In this document: in pieces, positions 15,095-46,189 of the stretch | Layout of the letters: each line of letters opens with the position of its first letter | How positions within the stretch are numbered: position 1 is the stretch's first letter | Source of the DNA: Siphonodentalium dalli | Taxonomy: Eukaryota > Mollusca > Scaphopoda > Gadilida > Siphonodentaliidae | Length of the DNA: 64,000 nucleotides | Direction of reading: 5' to 3' | Assembly: GCA_032622095.1 (NCBI GenBank) | Contig: CP136065.1 | Span: 96,109,343 to 96,173,342 of the forward strand | The notes under the pieces: model-generated | Seen by the model: the letters and a program-made list of their open reading frames with translations, nothing else | Databases searched by the model: none | Told to the model about the DNA's origin: nothing | Translations under genes and position numbers: made by a program

Positions 15095-16129
15095 GGATTA
15101 AGTTGAAAATATGACGTTTTTTCACAAATATCTTCTAGACCAGTTCATGCTGTTTGGAACTGCTTGAGTAATGTGACTTTATATTGTGTTTTGTATATTA
15201 ACTGATCATTGGAGCAATTAAATATGCAATTATTGGAACACGGTATAAAATTTCACAAAAACATCACAATTTTAGTCATATTTCAACAAGAACTTTGTAA
15301 TGTAAGTGAGGCATATCATTACCTATGAATATTCCAACTCATTGGAACAAAAATTCTTACTTTGGCTCAAAATGGCTGCCAAAATGGCCGCCAAAATATG
15401 GAAAATGGTAAATATTGCCCCAGCGTGTCCTGCAATCGCTTACAAGTTGTGGTTGATGTATAAAATTGGCTATTCTGCCTCCTATACATTGAATACTAAC
15501 ATATCTGATGCACCATGGTTAATTGTTACTATTGTTACCACTGACATCACCAAAAATATTGGACTTCTTCTCTCAAAAACTTGACATAAATATCGGCAAA
15601 AATTAACTTTTCAGGTATAGACCATATTTTCAAGTAAAATGCAACTATCACTGGTAAAATGTAACTGTCTCTGGATTCAAATGTGTTTATTGTTTTGGTC
15701 TATCTTAAATGTGTCACACTACGGTATATATAGACCAAATTGATCAAGATGGCTTCCAAAATGGCCACCAAATTTTAATTTTTAATTTTTTTTTTTACAT
15801 ATATCCTGAACATTATTCTCTGTGTTATCCGAAAAGGTAGTAACTGGTGACTCACTTGGTTATTATACGTGTTAGTTAATTAACTGACAACTATATGTTC
15901 TATTCTGGTTGTCCCAGTTCCGTATGGGGCATGACAAATTCATTTTAAAGTATGGAATTTTGCCGAGAACCTCTTTTGTGATTCTGGCCATATTATTGAA
16001 TGGAAATGGGCAGAACGTTGAGACGAAACCGAGATGAACAATAATCTGTGGCTATTCTGGTCCATTATGGTAACAAAAAATATCAACTGGATGCAGGGTG
16101 GATGCCAAGATGGTAGTCAGTGAGTTACT

Positions 16130-17795
16130 CTATGATCATAGTTGAGGTGAATAGGTATACAGGGAGTTATTGTATGTCATGAATGGTGTGAATATGTATA
16201 CAAGGAGTGACTATATGGTTATGTGTGGGTTGTCCATTGTAAGATGTATCGGTATACAGGGAGAGGTCATGGTCATGTGTGATGTGAATAGGTATGAATG
16301 GAGTGAATGTATGTTGTATGGTTGTGTATGTCCAGTACGGGTGCACCCGATGTGCCTGTATGGACATTGATGGGGTGTGTGAATATAGTTACATGGTCAT
16401 CTATGTGTTGATTATGTATATATGGAGTGACTGTAAGGTCATGGGTGGGATGTACATGTGTTGTCTGTATAATCATGGATGGGGTGTGTGGATAAATAGG
16501 GAGTTATTTTACGGTTACGGGTAATGTGTATAGGTATACATGGAATGACTGTACGGTCATGATTGAAGTGTATATGCATTCCTGGAGTAAGCTGGTGGAC
16601 AGTATCGAACGTGTGGGTATATAGGGAGTGTCCTTGTGGTATATATTTATATATCTCGTGGATATTATCATTGGTGGGTATATAGGGATTATCTGTATGA
16701 TCATGGATGGCGTGTATGATTATACAGTGAGTTGCTGAATTGTCATGTGTGAGGTGTATATGCAAGTATGGAAGGTATGAGTGGTCGTGTGTGCAGGTTT
16801 TTTTGTATATCTGGAATGGCTGAATGGCCGTTTGTGAGGTGTATATGTATACCTGGGGTGACTCTATGGTCTAGGGTGGGCTGCATATGTATATATCGAG
16901 TGGTTATATGACTATGTGTGTCGAATAGGTATACATGTAGTGACTGTAAGGTCAATGGTGATATGAGTACATGTAGGTATACAAGGAGTGACTGTATGGT
17001 CATACATGCAATGAATATCTATACAGGGAGTGACTAAATGGTCATGTGTCAGGTGTATGAGTATACCTGGTGTTCCTGCTTGGTGATTCGTGGCGGTATG
17101 GTCATGTGTAGGTTATACGGGTATACACACGTGTTGTTATATGGTCATGTGCGAGGGGTATGTGTATATAGCGAGTGGCTATATGGCCATGTGTGAGGTG
17201 CATATGCATACACGGAGTGACTTTTCTGACATAGCTGGGGTGTATTAGTATATCTTGTGTCGCTATTCGGCTATGGTGCGACACATAGGGATACATGGAG
17301 TGACATGGCCAATGGTGAGGTGAATATGTATACAAGTATTGACCATGATCATGTATGAATGTTTTGAATAGGTACACACGGGGTGACTATATGGACATAT
17401 GTCAGGTGAAGGAGTATACCAGGTGGCAAGGGTGAGGGTATGTGTATGAAGCGAGTGGCTATATGACCATTGGTGAGGTGCATATGTATACCTGGAGTGA
17501 CTCTATGGTCATTGTTGTGGTGTTGATGTATATATTGAATGTCTATTTGACCATCTGTGTGGAGAATATGTATACAGGGGATTACCGTATGGCCAATCGT
17601 GAGGTGAATGCATGGGTATACACGGAGTGACTATATGGTTATGGGTCATGTTTAGGAGTATACCCGGTGGGCCTCCATTGTGACTCATGGATGTATGGTC
17701 ATCCGTGGTAATGGGTCAGGTGTACGTATAAACATTGGGTCACTATATTGTTGTGTCTGTGGTGTTTATGTATATATGGAATGACTGTGTGATAA
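16130..17795 (+). repeat. 42-bp minisatellite, left array of FB copy A
   Basis: Degenerate units centre on GGTATACAGGGAGTGACTA followed by TATGGTCATG and a G/T-rich spacer. Because 42 is divisible by three, both strands give long artefactual ORFs (His/Thr-rich on minus, Met/Cys/Tyr-rich on plus). Confidence 0.85.
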
Positions 17796-17797
17796 TG

Positions 17798-17901
17798 GGT
17801 GGCTAACGCTTTCCACGTTTAACGTTTCCCCCATGTATATAAACATGACCTCTCTATTGATTAACATATCCTTGAGTTATTGTGGAAAGCGATAGCCACC
17901 C
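17798..17901. repeat. Central hairpin of FB copy A
   Basis: The stem GGGTGGCTAACGCTTTCCAC pairs with GTGGAAAGCGATAGCCACCC; the loop contains ATGACCTCTCTATTGATTAA. The same stem and loop sit at 42789-42873 in copy B. Confidence 0.85.
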
Positions 17902-18380
17902 AAGGTACACATGTACAACCCACCCATTACCTCAGTCACTCCATATGTACATAAACACCACATAAATGACAATATAGTCACCCACTTTATACACGTACAC
18001 CTGACCATACAGCCGTACTTGGTTATACCCGTACATACCACAAATGACGATACAGCCACGATTCACCATGCATGAACACCAGGTGTACTCCTACACCTGG
18101 CACATGACCATATAGTCACTCTATGTATACATATGCACCACATCCACGATCATACATTCACTCAGTGCATACATATTCATCTCACTATGGACCATACAAC
18201 CACTACATGTATACATATTCGCCATACCCATGACCATAGGGTCAATCCAGGTATACATATACACCTCACCAATGGTGAGCCATTCCAGATATACGAATAC
18301 CCACACACACGACCACTTATACCTTCCGTACTTGCATATACACCTCACACATGACAATTCAGCAACTCACTGTATACTGT
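17902..18380 (-). repeat. 42-bp minisatellite, right (inverted) array of FB copy A
   Basis: The same unit on the opposite strand (CACTCCATATGTACATAAAC, GACCATACAGCC). Unit order follows copy B at 42874-43490. Confidence 0.85.
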
Positions 18381-18719
18381 ATTCATACACGCCGCTCCAA
18401 TGATCAGTTAATATACAAAACACAAAATAAAGTCATATTACTCAACCAGTTCCAAACAATATGAACTGATCTAGAAGATATTTGTGAAAAAACGTCATAT
18501 TTTCAACTTCCGGCGGCCATTTTGGCGGCCATTTTGGAGGGTGAGTTTCAATTTTGCGCCAAAAAAGTGTCATTATGTCTTAGCTTCACGAAAATATATA
18601 CATTTGTATACATTTTACTAGATTTTCCCCGCTATAATTTGCATAAAACTGAATTAGGGTCTGATCTGAAAAATGGCGGCCAGGATGGACGCCATCTTGT
18701 CTGAAGTCTACACGGCCAT

Positions 18720-20010
18720 CTTTTTCTTATTAACATTGCTTAAAAGTTGAAGGACATAATAAGGAACAACATGAGTGGGGTGAAGTTAAGTCCCATGGGG
18801 CGGGTGCAAAGGTACCCCTATTGGCTCCCGGACTATAAGAGAATTATTACGAGAATCGTCGATAAATATACAAAACAGCAATGTCTTACCGTAGGTACCT
18901 GATTAATATGATGTTAATGTTTCATAGTTATTACTGTGATGATAGTATCATGATACAACGCGGCTTTGAACGTTCCGCGAGGAGTATATAAGTTTGAGTA
19001 AGTTCAAGGCCAGTTACGTGATTTCATATGACGTTGTACGGTGCCGTATCAACAACCCTCCAGCGAAGAAAACACGAAGATTTTAAAAGCCTTTTATTGA
19101 ACCCTATGTTCGTCCAATCGGGTGACAGGCAGTCTATTCGTGTTCGGCACCTTCGAATTATGGTAAAAAAGTTGGTTTGACACTTTTCCGCGGAAATGCT
19201 TCTAGAAATGTCTTTTCTGAGAATTACGACTAGACTATTATGTTGGGTATCCACTTCTTCTAACACCAAGTCTGGATATATATCTACGAATAATTTCCTG
19301 AGAAACGAGAAGATTCAAATATTCATGTAAACTTAAACAATAAACATTAACATAATAATTAAACTTGAATGCACTCTGACATCAAAAAGTAAATTGCACA
19401 TGTAAGCTGATAACCAAACAGTCAAGATATATGACTTGATTGTCAGAACGCTGAAATGTCACACCGTCAACCAGGCGGCTGACTTTCAGGAAAGGCAATA
19501 ACACAACATGTTTGATGCTGTAACTCTATATCCTGCCAAAATTGAATAGCAAACCTCCACCTAAATCATTCACAGGTGTCAAAACATTTCCAGAATGGAC
19601 GCAGAAAATATATGGTAAATATTTATATCAATGTACCAGTGCCATCTAACCAGACTGAAAGAAGCATTGAATACACTAGAGTAGATCTGGCACCAGAGGC
19701 TATAGGAAATCTCCAAGCAAAGACAGCCGTTGCTGACCTTACAATCTATGGTCACACGAGCGACGACTCAAGGCACGAAATTGTGTGAAATTGGAATTTT
19801 ACATTGTTTTGTTTCACAAAAACCTACATTCCGACTGGATGATTGATGAACATCAAGCAATACATGTAGGTGCACAGTAGTTCAAACGTCTAGATTACGG
19901 AACATATACATGCCGGCTCCTGAGTGGATATTGTATGGAGTCAACTATAAGTGCATGCTTTGCTTAGTGGACAGCCTGCTCTTCTGAAATTAATCTCATC
20001 TGAACTCATT
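18720..20010. other. Mostly featureless; one possible terminal exon listed separately
   Basis: No repeat landmark seen. The minus-strand ORF at 19024-19269 has no recognisable motif. Confidence 0.4.
19576..19788 (+). other. Possible terminal coding exon, unrecognised
   Basis: A 70-codon open stretch follows TCATTCACAG, a reasonable acceptor ending at 19575. It has protein-like composition (acidic and polar, with IEYTRVDLAPEAIGNLQ near the middle) and ends in HEIV and a stop. It resembles the tail of a larger protein more than a stand-alone gene. There is no ATG at the start of the open stretch, no domain is recognised and no upstream exon was found. It may equally be chance. Confidence 0.2.
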
Positions 20011-20014
20011 TCAA

Positions 20015-20345
20015 AAACACAAATAAGCCCATATCGTCATTATCTGAATCTAAATTACGCTCTATAATCTAAACGCGACTTTAAATAGTCCAATAAGGGA
20101 CTATTTATGTACGAATAAACACACAGTATTCGCATTATTTAATCAATCTTTTTTCATCGACACGACTTACCCGATTCACACTCTTTATAATGTGTTTTCA
20201 CTGCGGCCCGCGCCTTTTAACGGAATAACGGGTATAAGCTCACTATGGGTTTATTTCAGTATCAATCATTCCAATATGAACCAACTTGAATATTTAGGTC
20301 AACTATGAACATAGTTGCAGGAGGATATGTTGCATTTGTCTATAT
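20015..20345 (+). repeat. R1 arm copy (third locus)
   Basis: It matches 29135-29360: AATAAGCCCATAT, CTGAATCTAAATTA, CCCGCGCC, GGAATAACGGGTATAAG, CTATGGGTTTATTTCAG, AATATTTAGGTC and AGGATATGTTG. It shows that R1 is interspersed. It is also a second reference for the unoccupied insertion point used at 31308 (reads GGGTATAAGC here). Confidence 0.7.
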
Positions 20346-21180: not shown

Positions 21181-21189
21181 CTCACACCA

Positions 21190-26693: not shown

Positions 26694-26916
26694 TAACATA
26701 CAGAAGTATTATCATATGTCGTTCTGTTCAGAGCGCGTACCATGATAACACCGTTGGCGAAAAAGGCTGGTTCGTCTCGACATGTAACCCAGAGTTTCCA
26801 AATGGAAATTGGATCAGGTTTGACCTTAAAGAAGAATAGCATATCTCGTTGTGAATAATAACTAGTTTCACGACAATAGTGAGCAGTGAATCGTTCATTT
26901 ATAGTCAGTTTCCACA

Positions 26917-27413
26917 TTAAAGGTACGGTTGGCCTTGGCGGTGGGTATCCTGTGAAAATATTTCCACCCGTCAAAAACCGCCACAAACAGAAAGAACATC
27001 AAAATGTAGACAGACTTTGTCCGTATATAAATAAGAAATATCGCATAAACAGTATGTTATTCTCATATGTTTAACCATTGTTATGTAAACAAAGGCATAA
27101 AAAGTTTCTGGTGTTTGTTTATATTATAATGGTAAACACAAAGAGCGTTCTTTGTTGGTGAATTCCTGATATGGAACTAATAAAGAGCGTTTATGCCATT
27201 TGTGTGTGATTAGCCAGTAGCATTGTGCTGTCCTCTGTAACCCAATCAGGCTCTTGCTTAGGTAAAATATGGTAGGTATTTATGATAACATGCTGTTTAC
27301 GCGATGGTCATGGTATATATGAACGAAACTGTATGCGTTTTAATGTTTTGCTGTTTACGGTGTTTGGAACAAATATGAATATTTTCGACAATTAAGGCTT
27401 CACGTGCCTTTAA
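26917..27413 (+). mobile_element. TTAA MITE, copy 1 (489 bp)
   Basis: The element proper is 26921-27409 with TTAA on both sides (26917-26920 and 27410-27413). The left end is AGGTACGGTTGGCCTT; the right end, complemented, is AGGCACGTGAAGCCTT, so the TIRs are short and imperfect. Inside are AAAGAGCG words and two TAAACA-rich stretches. No ORF. TTAA duplications are typical of piggyBac and Kolobok transposons; which one mobilised this is not decided. It lies inverted relative to copy 2, giving a 490-bp inverted repeat around the LINE fragment. Confidence 0.85.
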
Positions 27414-27499
27414 TATAGTCGGCAAAGTTCGTGTAGCTGCAAAGTGTAAGAGGTGATCATATAGGTCCTATTTTTAAAAACAAAATGGAACAAAACTAT

Positions 27500-27965
27500 T
27501 TCTAAGGCTTGCCTATGACCATATGGCATGTTGATGAGCGGCCCCAGAAACAAGAGTTTTCTCCTCAAGTTCATACTGAATTGGCAAAACACCAAGCAAG
27601 GAGAGAGAAATAATTGTACTACTTCTCTTAGAGATAAGTTGCATGTTTTTAATGCACATGGGATATGCTCGTTCTAAGCTAAGGTAATTCGTAGATGAAA
27701 TGCTCCACCACATCTCGCAATCACACAGGGCTTTAGGGATGGCTACCTGACTAAACAGTTTAATATCTGTCAGAGGAGTGAAATCTTTCGAAACCGGGGC
27801 GCGACAAGTGGCAAAGAAGCATTTGCGTAGCATTTGAGAAGCGTGCTCAATGTTCGGGAAACTGAAGTCGGTTATTGTATTGGTGACTGGACGTTCAGAA
27901 ACTATAACTTCTATTTTCCGACTCTCCAGTATCTCGTCCATTAAACCTGACATATATCGTCCACT
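27500..27965 (-). pseudogene. LINE ORF2 fragment (post-RT region), left arm
   Basis: The minus strand reads LKLFSQVAIPKAL, then CEMWWSISSTNYLSLERAYP and SLSLLGVLPIQYELE. This is the segment just downstream of the RT domain in CR1/Jockey-like ORF2, where family members usually show PxALYGCE. Here the Gly of that motif is replaced (ALCDCE). The same fragment on the + strand at 33484-33947 keeps ALYGCE. Similarity between the two stops after ATAGGCAAG. It is a passenger fragment with no RT catalytic core. Confidence 0.75.
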
Positions 27966-28463
27966 TTAAAGGCACGTGAGGCCTTAGTTGTCGAAAATAT
28001 TCATATTCCAATCACCGTAAACAGAAAAACATTAAAACGCATACAGTTTCGTTCATATATACCATGACCATCGCGTAAACAGCATGTTATCATAAAGATT
28101 TACTATATTTTACCTAAGCAAGAGCCTGATTGTGTTACAGAAGACAACACAATGCTGCTGGCTAATCACACACAAATGGCATAAACGCTCTTTATTCGTT
28201 CCATATCAGGAATTCACCCACAAAGAACGCTCCTTATGTTTACCATCATAATATAAACAAACACCAGAAAAGTAACTTTTTATGCTTTTGTTTACATAAC
28301 AATGGTCAAAAATATGACAATAACATACTGTTTATGCGATATTCCTTATTTGTATACGGACAAAGTCTGTCTACATTTTGTTGTTCTTTCTGTTTGTGGC
28401 GGTTTTTGACGGGTGGAAATATTTTCACAGGATACCCACCGCCAAGGCCAACCGTACCTTTAA
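27966..28463 (-). mobile_element. TTAA MITE, copy 2 (490 bp), with empty-site proof
   Basis: The element proper is 27970-28459, flanked by TTAA (27966-27969 and 28460-28463). Ends are AGGCACGTGAGGCCTT and, complemented, AGGTACGGTTGGCCTT. The inverted duplicate arm reads AAGAATTAAAGTGGACG at 33476-33492, exactly the sequence expected before insertion, with a single TTAA at 33480-33483. Confidence 0.92.
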
Positions 28464-29905
28464 TTCTTACTCGCCATAACCGAAATTGCAGTAAGACAGC
28501 GAGTTTACATCGCGTGTGGAAACTAGTCCATTCTGTCCAGTTGATCCGATTGTGTGCGGTCTATTGTGCTCGATGTCGGTCAGAACTTCGACTCGATAGA
28601 TTCTGGTAAATAACTATTATTATGCTCTGACCCTTACTTAAAACCATTATGGTGGTAAAATAAGATGTTGTCATCAGTGTAATTGTACTGTCTACAGTCC
28701 TGTATATTTAGAAACATATCATTTGCTGAATAAAAATGGGTCATGAAAGTACAGATCATTGTGGCAGTATTGTATTATACCGCACTCACTAACTTGGCCA
28801 TCAATTCATCTTAACGTTCATATTACGTTTGCGTAGTACAGAAGGGGGGGGGGGTCAAAATCTACGAGAACGGAGGTCGTTAAATAGAGGAAATACGAAT
28901 ATGCAGAATTTATTTGTTCTACAAAAGTCAGACCGAAATGGCAACAATTTATCAGCTGGGTTCATTTTCCCCAGAGAATAGAAATCAAACGCTCTTTATA
29001 TTTACCATATGCGGTATAGACCACACACGCACGTTCTTTAATTTGTATGTACTTTCCGAAGCGATATATCTTGTGACTTGATTAAGTCTTTCCGCGCCAG
29101 ATGAAGTCTATGTAAAAGTATATAAGCATCAAGTTCTCCTGAAAATAAGCCCATATGGGCAATATTTGAATCTGAATTAGGTTCTATATGAACCTTAATC
29201 GACTTAGTGGATGTACGCTCTTTAATTATAATATGTTTTCACCGTGACCCGCGCCATAAAACCGAATAACGGGTATAAGTCTGCTATGGGTTTATTTCAG
29301 AATCGAATAGTTCCAATATGAGCCTAAGTGAATATTTAGGTCCAATATGAACGAGGATATGTTGAAGTATTACACGTATTTATCGACCAAGTTTTATCCC
29401 TGAAATCGAATTTTGAATATTCCCTCAGAGCATACATGTACAGACGAACATGACTACGTTTTCTCAGCCAAACACGAATATGGTTACTGCGGGTCCGTCC
29501 ATTAAAGCGCTCCAAAATACACATATTATTCGCTTTTGAAGTTTTCTTGGTATCGAAATAGGTCGATAGATATCTGAACTACCTTTCTACGAGCATTATG
29601 TAACCCAAAACGACGTATTGAAGTAATGAAAAATACAACTGTGAATACGGTGTTTTGTGTACAAATAAATTTGCACGACATGGAACAGAAAAGAGCGTTC
29701 CGTGGCAGTCTATTCCTGATATGGTAGCAATAAAGAGCATTTGTCTGACTTCTGGCGAAAAGTTGAACACGGCTGAAAAATGGCTGTGACGTTGGCAAGT
29801 GTTTATCAGAGCATATGAAGCCAGTATATCGGTATATTGGTATATACCGGTATATAATAGTTCGTTTATTTATCGACCTATCGTATCCGTCGCTCCAAAT
29901 TATGT
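28464..29905 (-). repeat. R1 inverted repeat, left arm
   Basis: 1.44 kb, complementary to 30676-31310 plus 32665-33479. Segment lengths agree closely (about 810 and 632 bp on both sides of the 31308 insertion point). Landmarks are ACCGAATAACGGGTATAAGT at 29261-29280 and ATATTGGTATATACCGGTAT at about 29835-29855. A G11 run lies at 28844-28854 in this arm only. Confidence 0.85.
28844..28854. repeat. Poly-G run (11)
   Basis: Read directly. The matching position in the other arm (near 33095) has no run, so it arose or was lost after the arms duplicated. Confidence 0.95.
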
Positions 29906-30675
29906 AGAACAAAAATTGGAGGTTCGACTGAACCATGTCCATTTAATTAACATACTGGGATAAAGTGGAAGCAAATCTAATATTGGTCCCGACGCGCTTC
30001 AGCAGGAATCAGCGACCGAATGGTAAACATAAATCAATGTTGTCCCCAAGGACTATAGTTCTCGATCGAAAGTTTCCAAATCGAACAACAACAGAACCGG
30101 AAAGTGTTGGGGCATTGGATTTTGTTTTTCAATTTTAATAATGACAATCGATGCACATTATTGACAACTGTTTTAATTACATGTTACTGTGACCAAGGTG
30201 CATCCTAATCACTACAGATCTAATTTAGTCAATAGTTAGAGTGGGTAAATCTCAGGATGAATGAACTGTCTCAGTCACGTCTATATATCTTTCCCTATAT
30301 AATATTCAACATATATCTTATTAAGACATTTCAGTGGTGAATATGGTCATTTTGTCATGAAATGTCGCATCCAGCGTGTACAAAGACACCCAGGATCTCC
30401 CAAATGTGGAAAAGGGCGCACAGCATGTCGAAATATCACAATCATGCGATTTTAGATTAGTCGTCTGCTAACTATTATTATAATAAGTATTTGGTTTTGA
30501 TCAGAGTTGGATTTCTACGGAATTTGAATGGGTATTCTGTTCGCTTAAATTTGAGTTTGACCGGAATTGCAGTTCCGGATCCTTGATTCGACTTTTGAGA
30601 TTCTGTGTGACTTTTGGCACGCTTCGGAGATCTCGTGTGTCTTTTTGTGCGTTTAGGAGATACTGAGTGTCTTTT
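29906..30675. other. Spacer between the R1 arms
   Basis: About 770 bp of single-copy-looking sequence. It starts with an R3 end (GGTTCGACTGAACCATGTCC at about 29923) and ends in a small repeat of GAGAT(T/A/C)CT(G/C).GTGTCTTTT at 30596-30680. No gene seen. Confidence 0.55.
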
Positions 30676-31310
30676 TGGAGCGACGTATACGATAGGTCGA
30701 TAATAAATGAACTATTGATATACCGGCTTCATATGCTCTGATAAACACTAATCTTGCCAAAGCAATTTTCAGCCGTGTTCAACTTTTCGCCAGAAGTCAG
30801 ACAAACGCTCTTTATTGCTACCATATCAGGAATAGACTGCCACGGAACGCTCTTTTCTGTTCCATGTCGTGTAAATTTCTGTCTTTTGTGTTTGGGACCA
30901 CAAAACACCGTATTCACAGTTGTATTTTTCATTACATCAATGCGTCATTTTGGGTTACATAGTGCTCGTTGAAAGGTAAAGTGTGCAGATATCTATCGAC
31001 CTATTTCGATACCAAGACAAATTCAAAAGCGAATAGTATTATGTGTATTCTGGAGAGCAAACCGCCATGTGGCTTTAATGCACGGACCCGCAGTAACCAT
31101 ATTCGCGTTTGGTTGAGAAAACATAGTCATGTTCGTCTGTACATATATATATGCTCTGAGGGGATATTCTAAATTCGATTTCAGGGATAAAACTTGGTCG
31201 ATAAATACGTGTAATACTTCAACATATCCTCGTTCATATTGGACCTAAATATTCACTTAGGCTCATATTGGAACTATTCGATTCTGAAATAAACCCATAG
31301 CAGACTTATA
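30676..31310 (+). repeat. R1 inverted repeat, right arm, inner part
   Basis: Complement of 29271-29905. It includes ACGATAGGTCGATAA, ATACCGGCTTCATATGCTCT, TTTTCGCCAGAAGTCAGACA and GACCCGCAGTAACCATATTC. Confidence 0.85.
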
Positions 31311-31812
31311 GGGTGGATACACACATGCATGTAATGTCTGTATGTAAAATACATGTATTTTACATGGCCACACCAATAATTGACAAAATTAATCACCTGC
31401 GCGCGAGAGATCAATTTCACCAGTGAGTAGTTATAAGCCATTATCAAACAAACTGCCATCAAAAAATTTCAGGCCAGTCATAAATATGTCTTCTTTCATG
31501 GATGCCGAAATGAGTAATTCTTGTCTGATATCTGTTGCTGTTTTTCACGAGTTATAATTCATTTCGAAAAGTGGATTAGAGCCGGTCGATTTTATACTTG
31601 ATTTGTTTCTGTCATTTCTTGGAAACAGGGTCATCCAAAACAAACATAAAATATGCAGAATTCTTTTATAGGATGATACCGGCTTGTTGAGACTTCTCTG
31701 ATAATTTGAGAGCGAGCTCATGTAATAACATTAATTCAATTGGGATTGCAAATATTCATTATAGCGCCAAAAAATAATGTAGGTACAGCGTTGAAATTAA
31801 AAAGAGTGACAG

Positions 31813-31832
31813 CCCCCCCCCCCCCCCCCCCC
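31813..31832. repeat. Poly-C run (20)
   Basis: Longest C run in the window; inside the ATA-flanked element. Confidence 0.95.
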
Positions 31833-32304
31833 ATTTATATACATATATGTTTCTCAAGCCAAAGGTTGAACAAGCTCCTAACTGTCACAAGCTTGAATTA
31901 TAACATTTTCGACCATAATCCATGATTGGGGGAGGGGCTGGTTCTCGAAAGCTTCCAATAACTAAGGGAGTTAATTGAATGTATCAGCCGGGATTATCTG
32001 GGCAAGAATTACAATATAATGTTTTACTTAAATATTCCATAGTTGTAAATTTTGCGTATAACTGTATAACACAAGAGAGGAAATGTGACGTAGTTGGGAA
32101 CTCGTAGCTAGGCAACCCTTTCGCCGAATGAAGACAAACAGCAACACCATGCATTCAAATTTAAAGCTGTATAATGTGTTCATAATTGTATGAATGGCAT
32201 AAATTGCTGCATATTAGATTAATCACTCGTAGAAAACAGACACGACAGACATGACTACGATATTTATAAAGCAGAGTGTCAGGACTCAGGGTGTTGCATG
32301 CAGA

Positions 32305-32318
32305 CCCCCCCCCCCCCC
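32305..32318. repeat. Poly-C run (14)
   Basis: Inside the ATA-flanked element, about 350 bp from its right end. Confidence 0.95.
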
Positions 32319-32664
32319 GGTCGAGGAAATATGCAATGGTGAATTCGGTAGCTTCTGGGATAATATAGCTCCCCGTGCATGTTGGGGAAGAGGCCATCAC
32401 TGGTATTAACATCAATAGAAGACTGACAATGATTTAAACAGAACGTCGACCATTTGAGTTATCGCGCGAATAATTATTTTAAGCGGCCTGACGACTTTGT
32501 CCCAGTCAACGGCTCTTCAGCGGTTCAGAGTTTAACTCACTGTGGTCAAACACAGTCGCAATGATTGGGTTGTCAGCGGACACATATTACACGGTCTGTA
32601 TGATCCATGTAAAACGCCAAATACACGATATTTACAGAGATTACATGCATGTGTGTATCCACCC

Positions 32665-33479
32665 ATACCCGTTATTCGGTTTTATGGCGCGGGTCACGGT
32701 GAAAACATATTATAATTAAAGAGCGTACATCCACTAAGTCGATTAAGGTTCATATAGAACCTAATTCAGATTCAAATATTGCCCATATGGGCTTATTTTC
32801 AGGAGAACTTGATGCTTATATACTTTTACATAGACTTCATCTGGCGCGGAAAGACTTAATCAAGTCACAAGATATATCGCTTCGGAAAGTACATACAAAT
32901 TAAAGAACGTTCGTGTGTGGTCTATACCGCATATGGTAAATATAAAGAGCGTTTGATTTCTATTCTCTGGGGAAAATGAACCCAGCTGATAAATTGTTGC
33001 CATTTCGGTCGGACTTTTGTAGAACAAATACATTCTGTATATTCGTATTTCCTGTATTTAACGACCCTCCGTTCACGTAGATTTTGACCCTCCTTCTGAA
33101 CTACGCAAACGTAACATGAAGGTTAAAATGAATTGATGGCCAAGTTAGTGAGTGGGGTATAATATAATACTGCCACAAGGATCTGTACTTTCATGACCCA
33201 TTTTGATTCAGAATTTTTATAAATGATATGTTTCTAAATGTCCAGGACTGTAGACAGTACAATTACACTGATGACAACTTCTTATTTTACCACCATAATG
33301 GTTTTAAGTAAGGGTTAGAGCATAATAATAGTTATTTACCAGAATCTATCGAGTCGAAGTTCTGACCGACATCGAGCACAATAGATCGCACACAATCGGA
33401 TCAACTGGACAGATTGGACTAGTTTCCACACGCGATGTAAACTCGCTGTCACTGCATTTTCGGTTATGGCGAGCAAGAA
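32665..33479 (+). repeat. R1 inverted repeat, right arm, outer part
   Basis: Complement of 28464-29273. It runs directly into the LINE fragment through the TTAA at 33480, with no MITE. Confidence 0.85.
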
Positions 33480-33483
33480 TTAA

Positions 33484-33947
33484 AGTGGACGATATATGTC
33501 GGGGTTAATGGACGAGATACTGGAGAGTCGGGAAATAGAAGTTATAGTTTCTGAACGTCCAGTCACCAATACATTAACCAACTTCAGTTTCCCGAACACT
33601 GAGCACGCTTCTCAAATGCTACGCAAATGCTTCTTTGCCACTTGTCGGGCCCCAGTTTCGAAAGATTTCACTCCTCTGACTAATCTTAAACTGTTTAGCC
33701 AGGTAGCCATTCCTAGAGCCCTGTATGGGTGCGAGATGTGGTGGAGCATTTCATCTACGAATTACCTTAGCTTAGAACGAGCATATCGCATGGGCATTAA
33801 AAACATGCAACTTATCTCTCAGAGAAGTAGTACAAATCTTTCTCTATCCTAGCTTGGTGTTTTGCCAATTCAGTATGAACTAGAGAGGAGAAAACTCTTG
33901 TTTATGGGGTCGCTCATCAACTTGCCATATGGTCATAGGCAAGGGGT
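33484..33947 (+). pseudogene. LINE ORF2 fragment (post-RT region), right arm
   Basis: Same segment as 27500-27965. It reads NLKLFSQVAIPRALYGCEMW, then YLSLERAYRMGIKNMQLISQ, and an in-frame stop after NLSLS where the other copy continues. After the stop the frame still reads LGVLPIQYELE. Fragment of a CR1/Jockey-type ORF2 without catalytic core. Confidence 0.75.
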
Positions 33948-34140: not shown

Positions 34141-35232
34141 TTCGAAGTATTACATGTATTACCAATGGATGATTACGTATTACATGTATTACTAATGGAT
34201 GATTGTGTATTACATGTATTACCAATGGATGATTACGTATTATATGTATTAATAATGGATGATTACGTATTACATGTACTACCAATGGATGATTACGTAT
34301 TACATGTATTACTAATGGATGATTACGTATTACATGTATTACCAATGGATGATTGTGTATTACATGTATTACTAATGGATGATTACGTATTACATGTATT
34401 ACCAATGGATGATTACGTATTACATGTATTACCACTGGATGATTACGTATTAAGTGTATTACTAATGGATGGTTGTGTATTACATGTATTACTAATGGAT
34501 TATTGTGTATTGCATGTATTACTAATGGGTTATTGTGTATTGCATGTATTACCAATGTATGATTACGTATTACTTGTATTACTAATGGATGATTACGTAT
34601 TACATGTATTACCAATGGATGATTACATAGTACATGTTTACAAATGGATGATTACGTATTACATGTATTACTAATTGATGATTACTTATTACATGTATTA
34701 CTAATGAATGGTTGTGTATTATATGTATTACTAATGGATGTTTACGTATTACATGTATTACTAATGGATGATTACGTATTACGTGTATTACCAATGGATG
34801 ATTACGTATAACATGTATTACCAATGGATGATTACGTATTACATGTATTACCAATGGATGATTACGTATTACATGTAATAATAATGGATGATTGTGTATT
34901 ACATATATTACCAATGGATGATTACGTATTACATGTGTTACTAATGGGTGATTACGTATTACATGTATTACTAATGGATGATTACGTATTACATGTAATA
35001 ATAATGGATGATTACGTATTACATGTATTACCAATGGGTGTTTACGTATTACATGTATTACTAATGGATGATTATGTATTACGTGTATTACTAATGGATG
35101 ATTGTGTATTACGTGTATTACTAATTGATTATTGCGTATTACATGTATTACTAATGGATGATTGTGTATTACATGTATTACTAATGGACGATTACCTATT
35201 ACATGTATTACTAATGGGTGATTCCGCGTATT
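34141..35232. repeat. 30-bp minisatellite, about 36 copies
   Basis: The unit contains ATTACGTATTACATGTATTA followed by C/T, then AATGGATG. The period is 30 bp throughout, with neighbouring units often alternating ACCAATGGAT and ACTAATGGAT (a 60-bp tendency). Since 30 is a multiple of three and stops are rare in both directions, it yields 140-200-codon ORFs on both strands with ten-residue repeats. I regard these as artefacts. Confidence 0.95.
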
Positions 35233-35299
35233 ACATTTTCTTTTTGCCTGACAACTGGACAGCTGGCTTAAGAATTACGACCTACAGTACCAGTCAGAA

Positions 35300-36057: not shown

Positions 36058-37605
36058 ATTCACATCACTTTAATCTTTGTTCTAGTTTCGCATCCGGTTG
36101 GTCGGTTTGCACTGACCATATATCGTGTTTTATCGATCTACGACAAATATAAAGGCTGTAACAATGTGGGCGTATGCCCTTTATATGTCAAATAAGTCGC
36201 CCACCGTGTTAATGAAACCCCCACGTTACCTCACCATTTCCAATAAACACATTCTGCGAAACTGAACTCGCGCCATTGACCTTGACCTCACGCATCATAA
36301 CACCCCGAATGGTTTCATCAGAGACCTGACCCAGATTATAACCGCGGCGTTATTAATTTGTTATGAGTCAAAATAATGCAACAAACTAACCTCAACACTT
36401 GGTTAGAATTGATGGGTAGACGTTTGCGTGACATTCATAGGTGATATATTCAAATCATATTCATCATCACGCACGCTATATCCATCGTGGTCCGGACACT
36501 ATAAATACGTTATCGACATATGGTCACTATAGGCCAGATATACGCAATCGCAAGCTCGAATTTAAGCAAATGTGAGCTGCTTTAGAACCACCCCCACCAC
36601 TTGCATCAGCGACCTGATATTCTTCCGCATTTAGTACATCACGGTCACGAATCACTTGGTCTTATGAAGTTTAACTAAACTGGCGGATTTACAAATATGC
36701 ATAAAAACGAGGTAATTTCTTATAAAACAAATACTATGGAACAGAGCAACAATATGATCAATGATATTCCGAACGTGGTATAGTATCCCATTTGTTTCGA
36801 AATATAAGGTAGTCTTCTCTAACATTCTTAATTGCAACAAAAATGGTTCGTTTTATATGATATTTGTATCAAAATCCGCCATTTGTGTCAAATTTTTAAA
36901 GGGTTTTACGCCAATTTCAATACATATAACAATGATCTAGTATCGATAATATATTAAAAAGTAATCATTTTGAGTCGAAGCTATCTGCTGAAAACGTTAT
37001 CATACAAATCAAATTGAATTATTTAATATAAATTAGTGTATGACTGGAGTCATAAACTAAGTTACGTAGCTCCGTTGACGCGACGTACCACACTTAAATA
37101 ACGGATGTAGATTGTATTACATTTACCAAACATCGTGTAAAAATATATGTCGTGACGGGCGTCAACTGAAGACACCCGCTGACTTTAGAATAAAACTAAT
37201 ACATTAGTAGTAATGGCGGGCACTTTGGGGCACCTCGTAGCTCGACGGATACTCTCGCTCATGCCCCAGATTGTTAGTCGAGCTACGGAGTGCCCCAAAC
37301 GAGCGAGCGAGTAAAATTTCTAGGTTGCCCTCAGATGGTATGTCGCTACCTTATAACGTCGAGATATAGCGTCCACGGGCCCATGTGGGCGCTCGGGCGG
37401 TAAATAGTTACACCGCTAAATACTGGTTGAAATTTCAAACTGCCAGAACAAATTCAACCTGCTTTGGTCTGAAAACTCCATTTAATATTATGACAAACAT
37501 GAAACTTCATTACGTGACCGTGACATATCACCGACCATAGTGAGCAACTGACAGAATAATGTGTACAGATACACGAATCTAGCTATATACCATCCAGACT
37601 CATGT
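36058..37605 (+). repeat. 1.5-kb inverted repeat, left copy (arm L)
   Basis: Complementary to 44634-46183 over its whole length with few differences. Landmarks are TCACATCACTTTAATCTTTG at the outer edge, CCATTGACCTTGACCTCACG, TCTTCAGTTGACGCC-type words around 37160, and GAATCTAGCTATATACC at the inner edge. It contains the hairpin at 37227-37296. The 62-codon minus-strand ORF at 36652-36840 lies inside and is not supported. Confidence 0.85.
37227..37296. repeat. Hairpin inside arm L
   Basis: GGGGCACCTCGTAGCTCGAC (37227-37246) pairs 18 of 20 with GTCGAGCTACGGAGTGCCCC (37277-37296) around a 30-nt loop. The partner in arm R lies near 44936-45010 and is less perfect. Confidence 0.85.
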
Positions 37606-38395: not shown

Positions 38396-38529
38396 CACCT
38401 TCAGAAGTATTCGAAATAAACTAGAAATGATTGTTTATACGATCAATTGTTTCGATGTTCTGTCTTTTAGCGAACTCATCTGGACATGTATTTCTCTTCA
38501 GACAATCTAAGAATTCCGGGTTAACAAAT

Positions 38530-38745: not shown

Positions 38746-39039
38746 ATTCTGATTAATTCGACATAATGAGAATAAATGTTGCCATATTTATACAAATGTA
38801 AACATTTTTGCGAAGGTAAAGTATTATGCCACATATCTATAGAAAAAATGGAACCCCTCGCCCCAGATGGCTGCCAAAATGGCGGCCTAAACACGAACAT
38901 TTGAAGTTTTTGCCTAATTTCTTAAAGATCAATTCCTGTTGTTTGATAATGGTTCAGACTGGCGATATTGATTAGGCTTTAGTTGGGGAGCCCGCATATG
39001 TTCTATTTACACTTTTGCGTACAAAAGGTTTGACCCCCT

Positions 39040-39560
39040 AAAGTTAGTACCAATAATGGAACATTCTGAAAACTGATTTCTTAAGTTGCGCATTCCTGGG
39101 GTTTAGGGGCCGCTGAACCCCAAAAAGTGCCAAAAAATCACTTCTATTTACACTTCCGCGTACATCGATGAATTTTGGTTTGATGATACTCCCAAGTGTA
39201 CTGATTAAGAAAACACAACTTAAGAAAGGGATTTTCCTGGGGTTTTCAGATAAGAAAGGGGGTCCCATGCTGAACCCCAAAACGTGATTTTTCACACTTT
39301 CGCGTACATCCACAATTTTTGGTCTCAAAGTACTTTGATATATACTAATTATAAAAACACAACTTAAGAAGGAACTTTTCCTGGGGTTTTAAGATAAGAA
39401 GGGGGTCATCGGGTCACCCCTCAAAACGTAAAAAATCACTTTTATTTATATGATTGCATTCGTCCAACGTGTGTGTATGTGCGTACACCCCTGGAACGTT
39501 GCACTATTACAACCAAAACATCCCTAAATCGATACGATCAACTTAAGAAATATATATTCA
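39040..39560 (+). repeat. Tandem array of ~155-bp units, about three copies
   Basis: Each unit holds AACCCCAAAA.GTG, TTTACACTT.CGCGTACAT, ACACAACTTAAGAA.GG and TTCCTGGGGTTTT.AGATAAG. The last unit and its right flank recur complemented at 46190-46435, outside arm R. Confidence 0.75.
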
Positions 39561-39591
39561 TGTCGTTTTCTGATAAGAACGAGACTTGTTA

Positions 39592-39607
39592 CCCCCCCCC
39601 CCCCCCC
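39592..39607. repeat. Poly-C run (16)
   Basis: Read directly, about 35 bp outside the left end of foldback copy B. Confidence 0.95.
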
Positions 39608-40829
39608 ACAACCCGATCCATTTTCTAGAACTATAAGTGAGCCTGTTTTATGAAAATTATAGCGGGAAAATCTGGTAAAATGTATACAAATGTATATATT
39701 TTCGTGAAGCTAAGACATAATGACACTTTTTTTGGGCCAAAATTGAAACTCACCATCCAAGATGGCCGCCAAAATGGCCACCGGAAGTTGAAAATACTAA
39801 TTTTTTCACAAATATCTTCTAGATCAATTCATGCTGTTTGGAACTGGTTGAGTAATACAACTTTATTTTGTGTTTTGTATATTAACTGATCATTGGAGCA
39901 ATTAAATATGCAATTATTGGGGTCCTAACCCCATCCCTCAAAAATTCCATTGTACAGAATGCTGTATAAAATTTCACCAAAAAAATCACAATTGGGATTC
40001 TAGTCATATTTCAACAAGAAATGAACAGAACTTTGTAAGGCATATCATTACCTATGCATATTCCAAATCACTGGAACCAAAATTCTTACTTTGGCTCAAA
40101 ATGGCTGCCAATATGGCCGCCAAAATATGGAAAATGGTAAATATTACACCAGCGTGTCCTGCAATCGCTTACAAGTTGTGTTTATGTATAAAATTGGCCA
40201 TTCTGCATTCTATACATTGAATACTAACATGTCTGATGCACCATGGTTAATTGTTACTATTTTCACCACTGACATCGTCAAAAATATTGGACTTTTCTCT
40301 AAAAAAACTTGACATAAATATCGGCAAAAATTCAGTTTTCAGGTTTGGACCATTTTTTCAGGTAAAATATAACTATCTTTGGATTGAAAGGTGTTTATTG
40401 TTTTGGTCTATCTTAAATGTGCCACACTACGGTATTTATAGACCAAATTGCTCAAGATGGCTTCCAAAATGGCAACCAAATTTGTAAAATGCTTATTTTT
40501 TACATATATCCCGAACATTCTCTGCATTATCCGAAAAGGTAGCAAATTGTGACTCACTTGCTTATTATACGTGTTAGTTAATTAACTGACAACTACATGT
40601 TCTATTCCCAGTTGTCCCAGTTCCGTATGGGACATGACAAATTCATTTTAAAGTATGTAATTTTACCGAGAACCTCTTTTGTTATTTTTGCCATATTTAT
40701 CGAAAGGAAATGGGCAGAACAATGATACAGAACTGAGATGGACCATAATCTTTGGCTATTCTGGTCCATTATGATAAAAAAAATGTCTACAGGATACAGT
40801 GTGGATGCCAAGATCGTAGGCAGGGAGTT

Positions 40830-42788
40830 ACTCTGTGATCATATGTGAGGTGAATAGGTATACAGGAGTTATTGTATGTCATGACTGATGTGAGTAGGTA
40901 TACAATGAGTGACTATATGGTTATAAGTGGGTTGTCCATGGTAAGATGGTATACAGGGAGAGGTCATGGTCAGGTGTGAGGTGAATCGGTATGTATGGAG
41001 TGACTGTATGGTGTATGATACAATGATTGTGTATATCCAGTACGGGTGCATCCGGTGTGCCTGTATGGTCATTGGTGTGGTGTGTGGGTATAGCTACATG
41101 GTCATCTATGTGTTGATTATGTATATATGGAGTGACTGTAAGGTCATGGGTGGGATGTTCATGATCATGGATGGGTATACAGGTATACAGGGAGTTATTG
41201 TATGTCATGACTGATGTGAGTAGGTATACAATGAGTGACTATATGGTTATAAGTGGGTTGTCCATGGTAATATGGTATACAGGGAGAGGTCATGGTCACG
41301 TGTGAGGTGAATCGGTATGTATGGAGTGACTGTATGGTGTATGATTGTGTATATCCAGTACGGGTGCATCCGGTGTGCCTGTATGGTCATTGGTGTGGTG
41401 TATGGATATAGCTACATGGTCACCTATGTGTTGATTATGTATATATGGAGTGACAGTAAGGTCATGGGTGGGATGTTCATGATCATGGATGGGGTGTGTG
41501 GATAAATAGGTAGTGATTTTATGGTTACGGGTAATGTGTATAGGTATACATGGAATGACTGTACGGTCATGATTGAATATGAATACATGGAGTAAGCTGT
41601 GTGGATATTATCGAGCGTGTGGGTACATAGGGAGTGTCCTTGTGGTAACCGGTGGGATGTATATTTATATATATCGTTGATGTATTATCATTGGTGGGTC
41701 TATAGGGCTTAGCTGTATTATCATGTATGGCGTGTATGATTATACAGTGAATTGCTGAATTGTCATGTGTGAGGTGTATATGCAAGTATGGATTGTTTGA
41801 GTGGTCGTATGTGCGGGTTTTTTGTATATCTGGAAGGGTTGAATGGCCATTAGTGAGGGTTACGTGTATACCTGGAGTGAATCTATGGTCTAGGGTGGGC
41901 TGCATATGTATATCGAGTGGTTATATGACTATGTGTGTCGAATAGGTAGTGACTGTATGGTTAATGGTGAGATGGGTACATGTAGGTATACAAGTAGTGA
42001 CTATGATCATAAATGTAATGAACATATATACAGGGGGTGACAGGCATATGAGTATACATGTACCTGGTGTTCCTGTTTGGTGACTCGTGTCGGTATCGTC
42101 ATGTGTAGGTTATACCAGTACACACACGTGTTGCTTTATTGTCATGGGCGAGGGATATGTGTATATAGCGAGTGGCTATATGGTCATGGATGATGTGCAT
42201 ATGCATACATGGAGTGACTATACTGACATGGCTGGGGTGTATTAGTATATCTTGAGTGGCTATTCGGCTATGGTATGACAAATAGGGACACAGGGATTGA
42301 CATGGCCAATGTTGGGGTGAATATGAATACAAGGATTGACCATGATCGTGTATGAATGTTTTGAATAGGTACACACGGGGTGACTATATGGCCATAGGTC
42401 AGATGAAGGAGTATACCAGGTAACATGGGTGAGGGTATGTGTATGAAGCGAGTGGCTATATGGCCATTGGTGATGTGCATATGTATACCGGAATGACTTT
42501 ATGGTCATTGTTGTGGTGTTAATGTATATATTGATTGTCCATTTGACCATGCGTTTGGAGAATAGGTATACAGGGGATGACCTTATGGCCAATGGTGAGA
42601 TGAATGGGTATATATGGAGTGACTATATGGTTATGGGTCATGTTTAGGAGTATACCCGGTGTGCCTGCATTGTGACGCGTGGCTGTATGGTCATCCGTGG
42701 TCATGGGTCAGGTGTACATGTATACAGTGGGTAACTATATTGTTATGTCTGTGGTGTTTATGTATATATGTAATGACTGTGTGATAAT
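40830..42788 (+). repeat. 42-bp minisatellite, left array of FB copy B
   Basis: Same unit and largely the same unit order as 16130-17795, including the odd unit CCAGTACGGGTGCATCCGGT. It contains an extra direct duplication of about 326 bp (about 40858-41170 and 41187-41490) that copy A lacks. Confidence 0.85.
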
Positions 42789-42873
42789 GGGTGGCTATCG
42801 CTTTCCACGACATGACATGACCTCTCTATTGATTAACATATCCTTGAGTTATTGTGGAGAGCGATAGCCACCC
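42789..42873. repeat. Central hairpin of FB copy B
   Basis: GGGTGGCTATCGCTTTCCAC pairs with GTGGAGAGCGATAGCCACCC; the loop again holds ATGACCTCTCTATTGATTAA and CATATCCTTGAGTTATT. Confidence 0.88.
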
Positions 42874-43490
42874 AAGGTACACATGTATTACCCACCCATT
42901 ACCCCAGTCACTCCATATGTACATACACACCACACAAATGACAACATAGTCACCCACTTTATACACGTACATGTACTAGTACACCTGATCATACAGCCAT
43001 ACTTGGTTATACCCGTACATACCACAAATGACGATACAGCCACGAGTCGTCACCATGCATGAACACCAGTATGCACCTACACCCGACCATATAGTCACTC
43101 TATGTATACATATTCACTACATTCACGATCATAAAGTCACTAATTGTATACATATTCCCCCCACCATGGGCCATACAGCCACTACATGTATACCTATTCG
43201 CCACACCCATGACCATGGAGTCAACCCAGGTATACATATGCACATCACCAATGGTGAGCCCTTCCAGATATACCAATATCCGCACATACGACCACTCATA
43301 AGTTCCATACTTGCCATACTCATACACACCATCCATGATAATAAATCTACTCCCCATACACCACCAATGATAACACATCCACAACATATATAAATATACG
43401 TCCCACCGTTACCAACAGGGCACTCCCTATATACACACACATCATTCATGACCATACAATAACTCCCTGTATACCTATTATCCTCATCTA
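42874..43490 (-). repeat. 42-bp minisatellite, right (inverted) array of FB copy B
   Basis: Opposite orientation to the left array. Shared with copy A unit by unit (CACCAATGGTGAGCC, then CCAGATATACGAATA- or CCAATA-type unit). Confidence 0.85.
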
Positions 43491-44633
43491 TGATCATAAC
43501 TCCCTGGCTACCATCTTGGCTTCCACCCTGTATCCAGTTGATAAATGTTTATCATAATGGGCCAGAATACCCACATATCATGGTTCATCTCAGTTCAGTC
43601 TCAAAGTTCTGCCCATTTCCGTTCAATAATATGGTTCTCCGCAAAATTCCATACTGCAACTTTAAAATGAATTTGTCATGTCCCATACGGAACTGGGACA
43701 AACATAATAGAACGTAGTTGTCAGTTAATTACATTGTAACTAACACGTACAATAACCAAGTGAGTCACAATTTGCAACTTTTTTCGGTTAACGCAGAGAA
43801 CAATGTTCGGGATATGTTAACTTTTAACTTCTAACAAATTTGGTTGCCATTTTTGAAGCCATCTTGAGCAATTTAGTCTATAAACACAGTAGTGTGACAC
43901 ATTTAAGATAGACCAAAACAATAAACACCTTTCAATCCAAAGATAGTTACATTTTACTTGAACAAATGGTCGAACCCTGAAAAGTGAATTCTTGCCGATA
44001 TTTATGTCCAATATTTCTGGTAAATGTCAGTGGTGACAATAGTAAAAATGATCCATGGTGCAGTAGACATGTTAGTATGGCATGTATAGAAAACATATTA
44101 GCCAATTGTGTACATCAACCACAACTTGTAAGCGATTGCAGGACACCCTGGGGCAATATTTAACATTTTCCATATTTTAGCGGCCATTTTCGCAGCCATT
44201 TTGAGCCAAGGTAAGATTTATGGTTCCAGAGATTTGGAATATTCATAGGTAATGATATGCCTCATTTACATTACAATGTTCTTTTCATTTCTTGTTGAAA
44301 TATGACTAGAATCCAAATTGTGATTTTTTGTAAAATTTTGTACTGCGTTCTGTAAAATCGAATTTTTTAGGGATCGGAAGGGGTTAGGACCCCAATAATT
44401 GCATATTTAATTGCTCCAATGATCAGTTAATATAAAAAACACAAAATAATGTTGCATTACTCAACCAGTTCCAAACAGCATGAATTGATCTAGAAGATAT
44501 TTGTGAAAAAAAATTATATTTTCTAATTCCGGCAGCCATTTTGGCGGCCATCTTGGATGGTGAGTTTCAATTTTGGCCCATAAAAGTGTCATTATGTCTT
44601 AGCTTCACGAAAATATATACATTTTACTAGATT

Positions 44634-46183
44634 TTCTCTGGAGGGTATATAGCTAGATTCGTGTATCTGTACACATTATTTTGTCAGTTGCTCACTATGG
44701 TCGGTGATATGTCACGGTCACGTAATGAAGTTTCATGTTTGTCATAATATTAAATGGAGTTTTCAGACCAAAGCAGGTTGAATTTGTTCTGGCAGTTTGA
44801 AATTTCAACCAGTATTTAGCGGTGTAACTATTTACCGCCCGAGGCCGCCCGGGCGCCCACATGGGCCCGTGGACGCTATATCTCGACGTTATAAGGTAGC
44901 GACATACCATCTGAGGGCAACCTAGAAATTTTACTCCGTAGCTCGACTAACAATCTGGGGCATGAGCGAGAGAGTATCAGAGTATCCGTCGAGCTACGAG
45001 GTGCTCCAACGTGCCCGCCCTTACTACTAATGTATTAGTTTTATTCTAAAGTCAGCGGGTGTCTTCAGTTGACGCCCGTCACGACATATATTTTTACACG
45101 ATGTTTGGCAAATGTAATACAATCTACATCCGTTATTTAAGTGTGGTACGTCGCGTCAACGGAACTACGTAACTTAGTTTATGACTCCAGTCATACACTA
45201 ATTTATATTAAATAATTCAATTTGATTTGTATGATAACGTTTTCAGCAGATAGCTTCGACTCAAAATAATTACTTTTTAATATATTATCGATACTAGATC
45301 ATTGTTATATGTATTGAAATTGGCGTAAAACCCTTTAAAAAATTGACACAAATGGCGGATTTTGATACAAATATCATATAAAACGAACCATTTTTGTTGC
45401 AATTAAGAATGTTAGAGAAGACTACCTTATGTTTCGAAACAAATGGGATACTATAACACGTTCGGAATATCATTGACCATATTGTTGATCTGTTCCATAG
45501 TATTTGTTTTATAAGAAATTACCTCGTTTTTATGCATATTTGTAAAAATCCGCCAGTTTTTTAAAACTTCATAAGACCAAGTGATTCGTGATCGTGATGT
45601 ACTGCATGCGGAAGAATATCAGGTCGCTGATGCAAGCGGTGGGGGTGGGTGGTTATAAATCAGCTCATATTTGCTTAAGTTCGAGCTGGCGATTGCGTAT
45701 ATCTGGCCTATAGTGACCATATGTCGATAACGTATTTATAGTGTCCGGACCACGATGGATATAGCGTGCGTGATGATGAATATGATTTGAATATATCACA
45801 TATGAATGTCACGGAAACGTCTACCCATCAATTCTAACCAAGTGTTGATGTTAGTTTGTTGCATTATTTTGACTCATAACAAATTAATAACGCCGCGGTT
45901 ATAATCTGGGTCAGGTCTCTGGTGAAACCATTCGGAGTGTTATGACGCGTGAGGTCAAGGTCAATGGCGGCGAGTTCAGTTTCGCAGAATGTGTTTATTG
46001 GAAATGGTGAGGTAACGTGAGGGTTTCATTAACACGGTGGGCGACTTATTTGACATATAAAGGGCATACGCCCACATTGTTACAGCCTTTATATTTGTCG
46101 TAGGTCGATAAAACACGATATATGGTCAGTGCAAACCGACCAACCGGATGCGAAACTAGAACAAAGATTAAAGTGATGTGAAT
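44634..46183 (-). repeat. 1.5-kb inverted repeat, right copy (arm R)
   Basis: Complement of 36058-37605. It interrupts the right flank of foldback copy B: the sequence on its far side (46190 onward) continues the complement of the left flank of copy B. Arm R therefore replaces about 100 bp of that flank. Confidence 0.82.
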
Positions 46184-46189
46184 ATATAT

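Follow-up and report, generated by a model that had tools for sequence, protein, structure and literature searches.

A 64,000-nucleotide window of the genome of the scaphopod mollusc Siphonodentalium dalli (contig CP136065.1, positions 96,109,343 to 96,173,342, forward strand) contains two stretches, here called copy A and copy B, in which a 42-bp minisatellite leads to a central hairpin and returns beyond it in inverted orientation. How did both come to hold the same structure? An earlier note, made from the letters of the window, had taken them for two copies of one foldback element. Comparison with other places in the 2.23-Gb assembly (nine contigs) shows instead that they belong to two families, the outer parts of which are unrelated. 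We consider it highly probable that these families, represented here by A and B, consist of non-autonomous cut-and-paste DNA transposons, with one foldback core passed between them as a passenger. First-look searches gave 3,097 candidates for the array, 2,074 for the arm and 1,307 for the hairpin, and 40 were scored for each.

Copy A is longer than the 15095-18655 first assigned to it. Loci L057 to L059 align to each other or to the window over the same 4.5-4.6 kb, and window copy A, L058 and L059 each align to L057 over its full length at 93-96%, with the same stop points. Because these alignments stop at the same ends, we conclude that copy A is complete at 14705-19237. A probe across the earlier right border (18400-18850) matched over its full or nearly full length, at 96-98%, in all 39 other scored places, and one across the earlier left border (14850-15300) matched over approximately positions 1-443 of 451, at 95-96%, also in all 39 other places scored for it. 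The features of copy A are as follows.

14702-14704: left target-site duplication, TTA
14705-19237, plus strand: complete 4,533-bp family-A element, ends TAGTCTGGTCGG.../...CGACTAGACTA, from whole-length alignment
14705-15099, plus strand: family-A left outer part, no relation to B
15100-16129, plus strand: core, left inner arm, homologous to B from 39785
16130-17796, plus strand: core, left 42-bp array
17797-17901, plus strand: core, central hairpin, stems 17797-17816 and 17882-17901, loop of 65 nt
17905-18390, minus strand: core, right inverted 42-bp array
18394-18649, minus strand: core, remnant (about 260 bp) of the right inner arm
18650-19237, plus strand: family-A right outer part, no relation to B
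19238-19240: right target-site duplication, TTA

The ends of this copy read TAGTCTGGTCGG and TAGTCTAGTCGT, and the inverted ends of the family are short and imperfect (12 of the first 14 bases agree). A combined pattern of 17-mers for the A ends matched 538 places in the genome (263 + 275), compared with 25 (7 + 18) for the control. A hand count of the first 100 of these 538 places found 40 facing pairs, each composed of a GG end and an AG end; the spacing was 4.3-4.6 kb in 22 of the pairs and 3.8-5.3 kb in 32.

Copy B belongs to a larger element. In copies fetched from the genome, the intact family-B element is about 6.05 kb, with terminal TAGTTNGGGAGCCCGCATATG on one side and its inverse on the other. 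The window copy is damaged, and extends over 38980-46424 (with foreign DNA at 44637-46179) rather than over 39640-44634 as first read.

38980-46424, plus strand: damaged family-B element, left terminus TAGTTGGGGAGCCCGC (38980), the final ~344 bp on the right absent
38980-39880, plus strand: family-B outer arm, whose left and right versions are interchangeable within the family (no fixed left/right difference, outer 900 bp, 9 copies)
39881-40829, plus strand: core, left inner arm
40830-42788, plus strand: core, left 42-bp array with a ~326-bp tandem duplication (40836-41250 / 41162-41570)
42789-42873, plus strand: core, central hairpin, stems 42789-42808 and 42854-42873, loop of 45 nt
42895-43500, minus strand: core, right inverted 42-bp array
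43501-44636, minus strand: right arm, inner part and beginning of the outer part
44637-46179: foreign 1.54-kb repeat replacing about 127 bp of the right arm
46180-46424, minus strand: right outer arm resumes, then breaks off

The ends of copy B read TAGTTNGGGAGCCCGC and its inverted arms are about 1.9 kb long. An inverted copy of the foreign repeat lies at 36058-37598 (94.8% identity). The ~326-bp duplication of the left array is spanned in one piece by L001 and L002, and not by L003, L004 or L011. Just outside the left end, a fragment at 38789-38957 resembles the B arm at about 69% and may be what remains of an older relative.

The exact 26-base B end has 657 matches in the genome (306 + 351), part of which sit within a tandem array of the end itself, and the reversed control has none. 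At its sixth base the end has A, G or C. Ends of the C type form a small subgroup (24 + 42 exact 49-mers), and eleven of them occur in one cluster on contig C8 (66967881-67041072), in a single orientation and repeated along the cluster. L052, a stretch just before this cluster, ends in a ~164-bp satellite identical to that at 10949-13344 of the window. Fifteen B-end matches also stand in a row at one terminus of a copy on contig C1 (105.578 Mb; L005 5805-6299), at a spacing of 33 bp with one step of 65; in L048 the outermost flank of this row, TAA, equals the TAA at the opposite end.

Family B has a foldback layout: its long inverted arms are repetitive inside, include the inverted 42-bp arrays and enclose little other sequence. 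The arms are 97-100% identical over the first 100 bp in four copies, and identity declines inward. Left and right arms were compared in nine of 13 full-length copies; L006, L013, L014 and L019, which are rearranged or have missing parts, were omitted, and keeping L013 visibly distorts the comparison. There are no fixed differences in the outer 900 bp, with 1-2 shared polymorphisms per 150 bp, then 2-18 fixed differences per 150 bp over 901-1950, rising to 47 in the following 150 bp, which lie inside the array. In the ancestor of the family, therefore, the outer arms were already homogenised and enclosed an inner part of greater age. Arm-to-arm conversion within copies was considered and is not supported. 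The nine-copy set had hinted that a copy's own arms are slightly closer in the outer part, but a larger test on 23 of 27 copies (L013, L022, L036 and L046 omitted, several retained arms rearranged) was not significant: distances to the own arm and to other arms had means of 0.123 and 0.128 and medians of 0.044 and 0.044, 4,086 of 20,000 permutations gave a value as low, and the own arm was the nearest neighbour for 6 of 46 arms.

The two families have in common a core of about 3.2 kb, consisting of inner arm, 42-bp array, hairpin and inverted array, with approximately 90% A-B identity when gaps are not counted (about 85% by BLAST with gaps). A copy L057 matches B copy L011 at 823-4036 (84.7% with gaps) and 5130-5389 (92.7%). 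Per 150 bp, in 4 A and 8 B rows and with gaps not counted, A-B identity is 0.83-0.94 over L011 901-4050 and drops to 0.40-0.54 past this interval; A-A and B-B identity remain at 0.93-0.995. The "outer arms" that the earlier note believed to be shared are mostly inner arms of this core; in their true outer parts A and B are not alike.

In a tree of the left array with 28 rows, 8 A and 15 B rows fall on opposite sides of one branch with a support of 100/100. Four of the five previously unlabelled rows group with B; the fifth, L051, a locus with two cores flanked by B ends, groups with A. The tree omitted L006, L015 and L064 (too short) and L010, L014 and L020 (without match); L060 and L061 are duplicates of each other. 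The two-sided tree indicates that, in the sampled rows, the core split once, before the expansion of either family. The A core is a fragment equivalent to L011 823-5389 with an inner deletion, and its borders differ by side (B positions 823 and, mirrored, 680). As the A core is truncated at different points left and right, with little of the right inner arm remaining, the direction of transfer would be from a B-like to an A-like element. To judge from these alignments, the core probably passed once, in this direction, before both families spread.

The same core invites two other explanations. There could be one element family in which the ends were replaced: A would be a recombinant form of B with newly acquired ends, perhaps through abortive gap repair following excision, and one enzyme would move both. 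This less likely possibility, which overlaps with our preferred reading, fits the ~90% common core, the form of the A core as a truncated B-like segment, and the fact that both ends start TAGT and are flanked by 3-bp duplications; however, A ends are unrelated to B beyond TAGT, and the base preference of the target duplications differs between the families. Alternatively, the core may itself be a mobile module that was inserted separately into A- and B-type elements as a nested foldback element. We find this very improbable: although the same core does lie between two unrelated outer pairs, its borders in A are unequal, and all 28 tree rows fall into two groups, so that repeated insertion is not seen.

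The internal structure is much as the earlier note described it. Autocorrelation is strongest at a period of 42 bp in each of the four arrays, which are long on the left and short on the right in both A and B, and 19 of 20 bases are paired in the central hairpin of each. The claim of a common unit order also held. The left arrays are collinear, with 36 of 38 steps of A's 39 blocks rising along B (Spearman 0.978), compared with 21 of 38 steps and a Spearman of -0.23 when the units of B were shuffled, and with 22 of 38 steps, a Spearman of 0.38 (p = 0.016) and a mean best score of 18 versus 61 for the reverse complement. Agreement is less firm in the short right arrays (9 of 10 steps, Spearman 0.59, p = 0.056). 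The copies examined have the same unit order; the arrays moved within the element, as had been proposed, and the core has been copied as a block. Two outcomes that the earlier note had set against itself, an unrelated unit order at each site and a structure confined to a single segmental duplication, were sought and not found in the copies examined.

Array length varies little in family B. Among the 11 of 13 copies with both anchors, the left array is 1,632-1,686 bp in 10 and 1,255 bp in one (L015), and the right array is 614-656 bp in all 10 copies with anchors; this sample favours copies of normal length, which were picked via array hits or via end pairs 4.9-6.2 kb apart. The B minisatellite is nearly frozen, unlike the repeats of the MtPH and Tetris elements discussed below. 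The hairpin loop has 2,108 matches genome-wide at up to 3 mismatches (1,067 + 1,041, both families together), and the control has none. Identity in the hairpin is 0.924 for A-B, 0.965 for A-A and 0.949 for B-B, no higher than in the adjoining sequence, and a constraint on the hairpin is thus not borne out. A comparison of the window with Rfam gave no matches at the gathering threshold.

These data also bear on whether the core does something. It is doubtful that the core is functional, with selection acting on the arms and hairpin, for instance as a series of binding sites for a transposase. Tandem repeats in the terminal inverted repeats (TIRs) of Galileo hold such binding sites (PMC3688188), and the B outer arm contains a direct repeat of ~195 bp (offset 156 bp, 73% identical), but the hairpin is no better conserved than its surroundings, and A spread although it lacks long outer arms. 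It is unlikely, to a slightly greater degree, that the core is an exchangeable module giving an advantage in mobilisation or copying, on which families with different ends converge.

The mobility claimed for the element is borne out by target duplications and empty sites. Identical 3-bp flanks lie flush with the element in 25 of the 27 B copies with both ends, and no copy has a longer flush match. With two segmental-duplicate pairs collapsed, the duplication is present at 23 of 25 distinct sites. L001, L002, L005 and L008 stand outside this count (an end beyond the stretch, or nested copies). Matching 3-bp flanks were found in all five A copies with both ends available (TTA in the window copy, L057 and L063, TCA in L058, TGA in L059). 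The joined flanks of L003 match across the junction in 40 of 40 scored places (the best 40 of 156 candidates; 90-95% identity), and those of L007 do so in 39 of 40 scored (of 2,946 candidates; 81-85%), the fortieth being the right flank of the filled site itself. At L054, an empty site inspected at single-base level, the sequence runs on without a break and TAT occurs once; the same script gave short chance alignments only for the minus-strand matches L055 and L056. Amplification of loci by segmental or satellite-like processes instead of transposition is therefore scarcely credible, given differing flanks with 3-bp duplications at most examined copies and the empty sites, even though some copies are segmental duplicates (L001/L002, L014/L036, L044/L046, L060/L061) and the eleven C-type ends lie in one cluster on C8. 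Separately, L053 (C1:10682600-10691200) is a B element centred in mirrored flanks of ~206 bp, without a 3-bp duplication.

Because both families end in TAGT...ACTA and produce 3-bp target duplications, we infer that a transposase supplied in trans would cut these ends and join them across a 3-bp stagger. Most likely, one transposase, or two, moves both families. The core, minisatellite included, would have been built once and then copied as a block, and, with no activity of its own, may be regarded as a passenger.

Several results weigh against the reading of two families with a passenger core. The 3-bp duplication is absent at L019 (flanks ATA/ATG) and at L022, which lies between mirrored flanks. 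Duplications have the form TNA in 5 of 5 A copies versus 8 of 25 B copies, and given this unequal preference two enzymes are possible. The asymmetric truncation of the A core is the single feature that points to the direction of transfer. Six of the 17 frames of at least 60 amino acids in L011, compared with Pfam, gave weak hits (E 0.057-0.17), under the cut-off, or none. Finally, neither a transposase, for which the earlier note had proposed a search, nor an autonomous partner was found in the odd-spaced copies opened, most of which were read in part; a partner may lie elsewhere.

The candidates for such a partner were each rejected. In family B, L009/L010 (10.9 kb) has a 4.4-kb insertion with listed frames of at most 87 amino acids, and L014 has 2.75 kb of other sequence in which the longest listed frame is 124 amino acids. 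The copy at 69.40-69.42 Mb of contig C7 has a 9.66-kb palindrome inside. A 20.4-kb copy on C8 (10.0 kb read) contains satellite and frames that, from their motifs, we take to be like those of long interspersed nuclear elements. Copies of 9.2 kb on C9, 10.5 kb on C3 and 11 kb on C8 (5.3, 6.4 and 7.0 kb read) contain core pieces, the A-type second core of L051, satellite and other repeats. In family A, the copy at 8.71 Mb of C2 and its duplicate at 10.71 Mb have a hAT element inside, those at 159.9 and 134.8 Mb of C1 are rearranged, and that at 160.8 Mb of C1, read over 8.5 of its 16.6 kb, includes about 6.5 kb of unassigned sequence with no frame of at least 110 amino acids. No PF13359 DDE transposase was seen by eye within 20 kb of the listed ends, for part of the copies and with the best 150 of 910 candidates scored. 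A NOF transposase between the arms was not seen in the opened copies, some of them partial, and no genome-wide search for NOF was made.

Two of the insertions are of interest in themselves. The palindrome on C7 (L021 with L020, 69404200-69418700) is a 9.66-kb insertion in the B array, near-perfect with 98.8% identity over its whole length; it has an 8-bp overlap of target sequence at its borders and mirrored 192-amino-acid frames in which a C2H2 finger scores weakly, under the Pfam cut-off. The hAT element at 8.71 Mb of C2 (L060 2797-6217) lies in the A core and has 13-bp inverted ends (CAGGGATGAGAAT), a 6-bp duplication (TGATGT) and a 639-amino-acid frame with a Dimer_Tnp_hAT domain (E 2.4e-05).

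The layout had been likened to Drosophila FB, sea urchin TU and Galileo, a kinship that the size of the target duplication does not favour. Drosophila FB (with NOF) and sea urchin TU have a foldback layout with tandem repeats in the arms; the duplication is commonly given as 9 bp for FB and MULE-NOF and 8 bp for TU, compared with 3 bp here. The 3-bp duplication separates this foldback layout from the animal examples compared (7-10 bp, with these sizes for FB and TU) and argues against membership in FB, TU, Galileo or Tetris. EnSpm/CACTA and Academ have 3-bp duplications, as does Zator; read directly, the A and B ends do not begin CACTA. IS3EU has similar TA...TA ends but a usual duplication of 6 bp.

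Galileo, of the P superfamily, resembles these families in its long, internally repetitive TIRs and chimeric copies (PMC3573991, PMC3688188). It differs in its 7-bp duplication (PMC3573991) and its known transposase with a THAP domain (PMC3573991, PMC3688188). Tetris of Drosophila virilis, known from three structurally complete copies, is likewise non-autonomous, with TIRs of up to 1.7 kb containing inner tandem repeats (~220 bp, variable in number) and with ends common to DAIBAM, but its duplication is 8-10 bp (PMC4079207). Among the systems compared, the nearest published form is MtPH-A6-4, a PIF/Harbinger element of Medicago with a TAA/TTA duplication, the TIR motif G(N)5GTT and 2 to 35 repeats (PMC2213677). 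The 3-bp duplication and inner inversions are alike; its repeat number varies where that of the present elements is nearly fixed, and the passages on it describe no sharing of a core between families (PMC2213677). TAA/TTA, as in PIF/Harbinger, accounts for 7 of 25 B and 3 of 5 A duplications here, the other B ones including GTG, TTC, AAA and CAT. The Cg_HINE Helentrons of oyster also have tandem-repeat modules joined to different flanks in several families, but are Helentrons, and their abstract describes neither inverted arms nor 3-bp duplications (PMC7492417).

To speak of an undescribed mobile system, as the earlier note did, is thus too strong, since long inverted arms with internal repeats are already known from non-autonomous transposons. 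The apparent novelty lies in the two families and the one core common to both; in open PMC text we found no description of these elements and no report of a foldback core common to two DNA-transposon families that differ in their ends. In the foldback elements compared, inner arrays grow and shrink within a single family, whereas here a near-frozen core occurs in two families with unrelated ends, which implies that inner structure and ends evolved separately. The comparison suggests that a foldback core can pass between kinds of transposon. With about 2,100 loops in one assembly, sequence comparison could reveal in what order the array was built, the core was transferred, the outer arms were homogenised and the families expanded.

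Other features of the window lie outside both elements. A 248-amino-acid open frame at 3189-3935, apparently intronless, encodes a Ras domain (Pfam E 2.3e-39). The region 26916-33943 contains nested inverted repeats that are 93-95% identical (26916-27413/27966-28464, 27508-27969/33480-33943 and 28458-29276/32665-33485), with a further inverted pair at 29274-29899/30674-31310 (85%). A 30-bp minisatellite at 34147-35236 has 36 copies and long open stretches on both strands.

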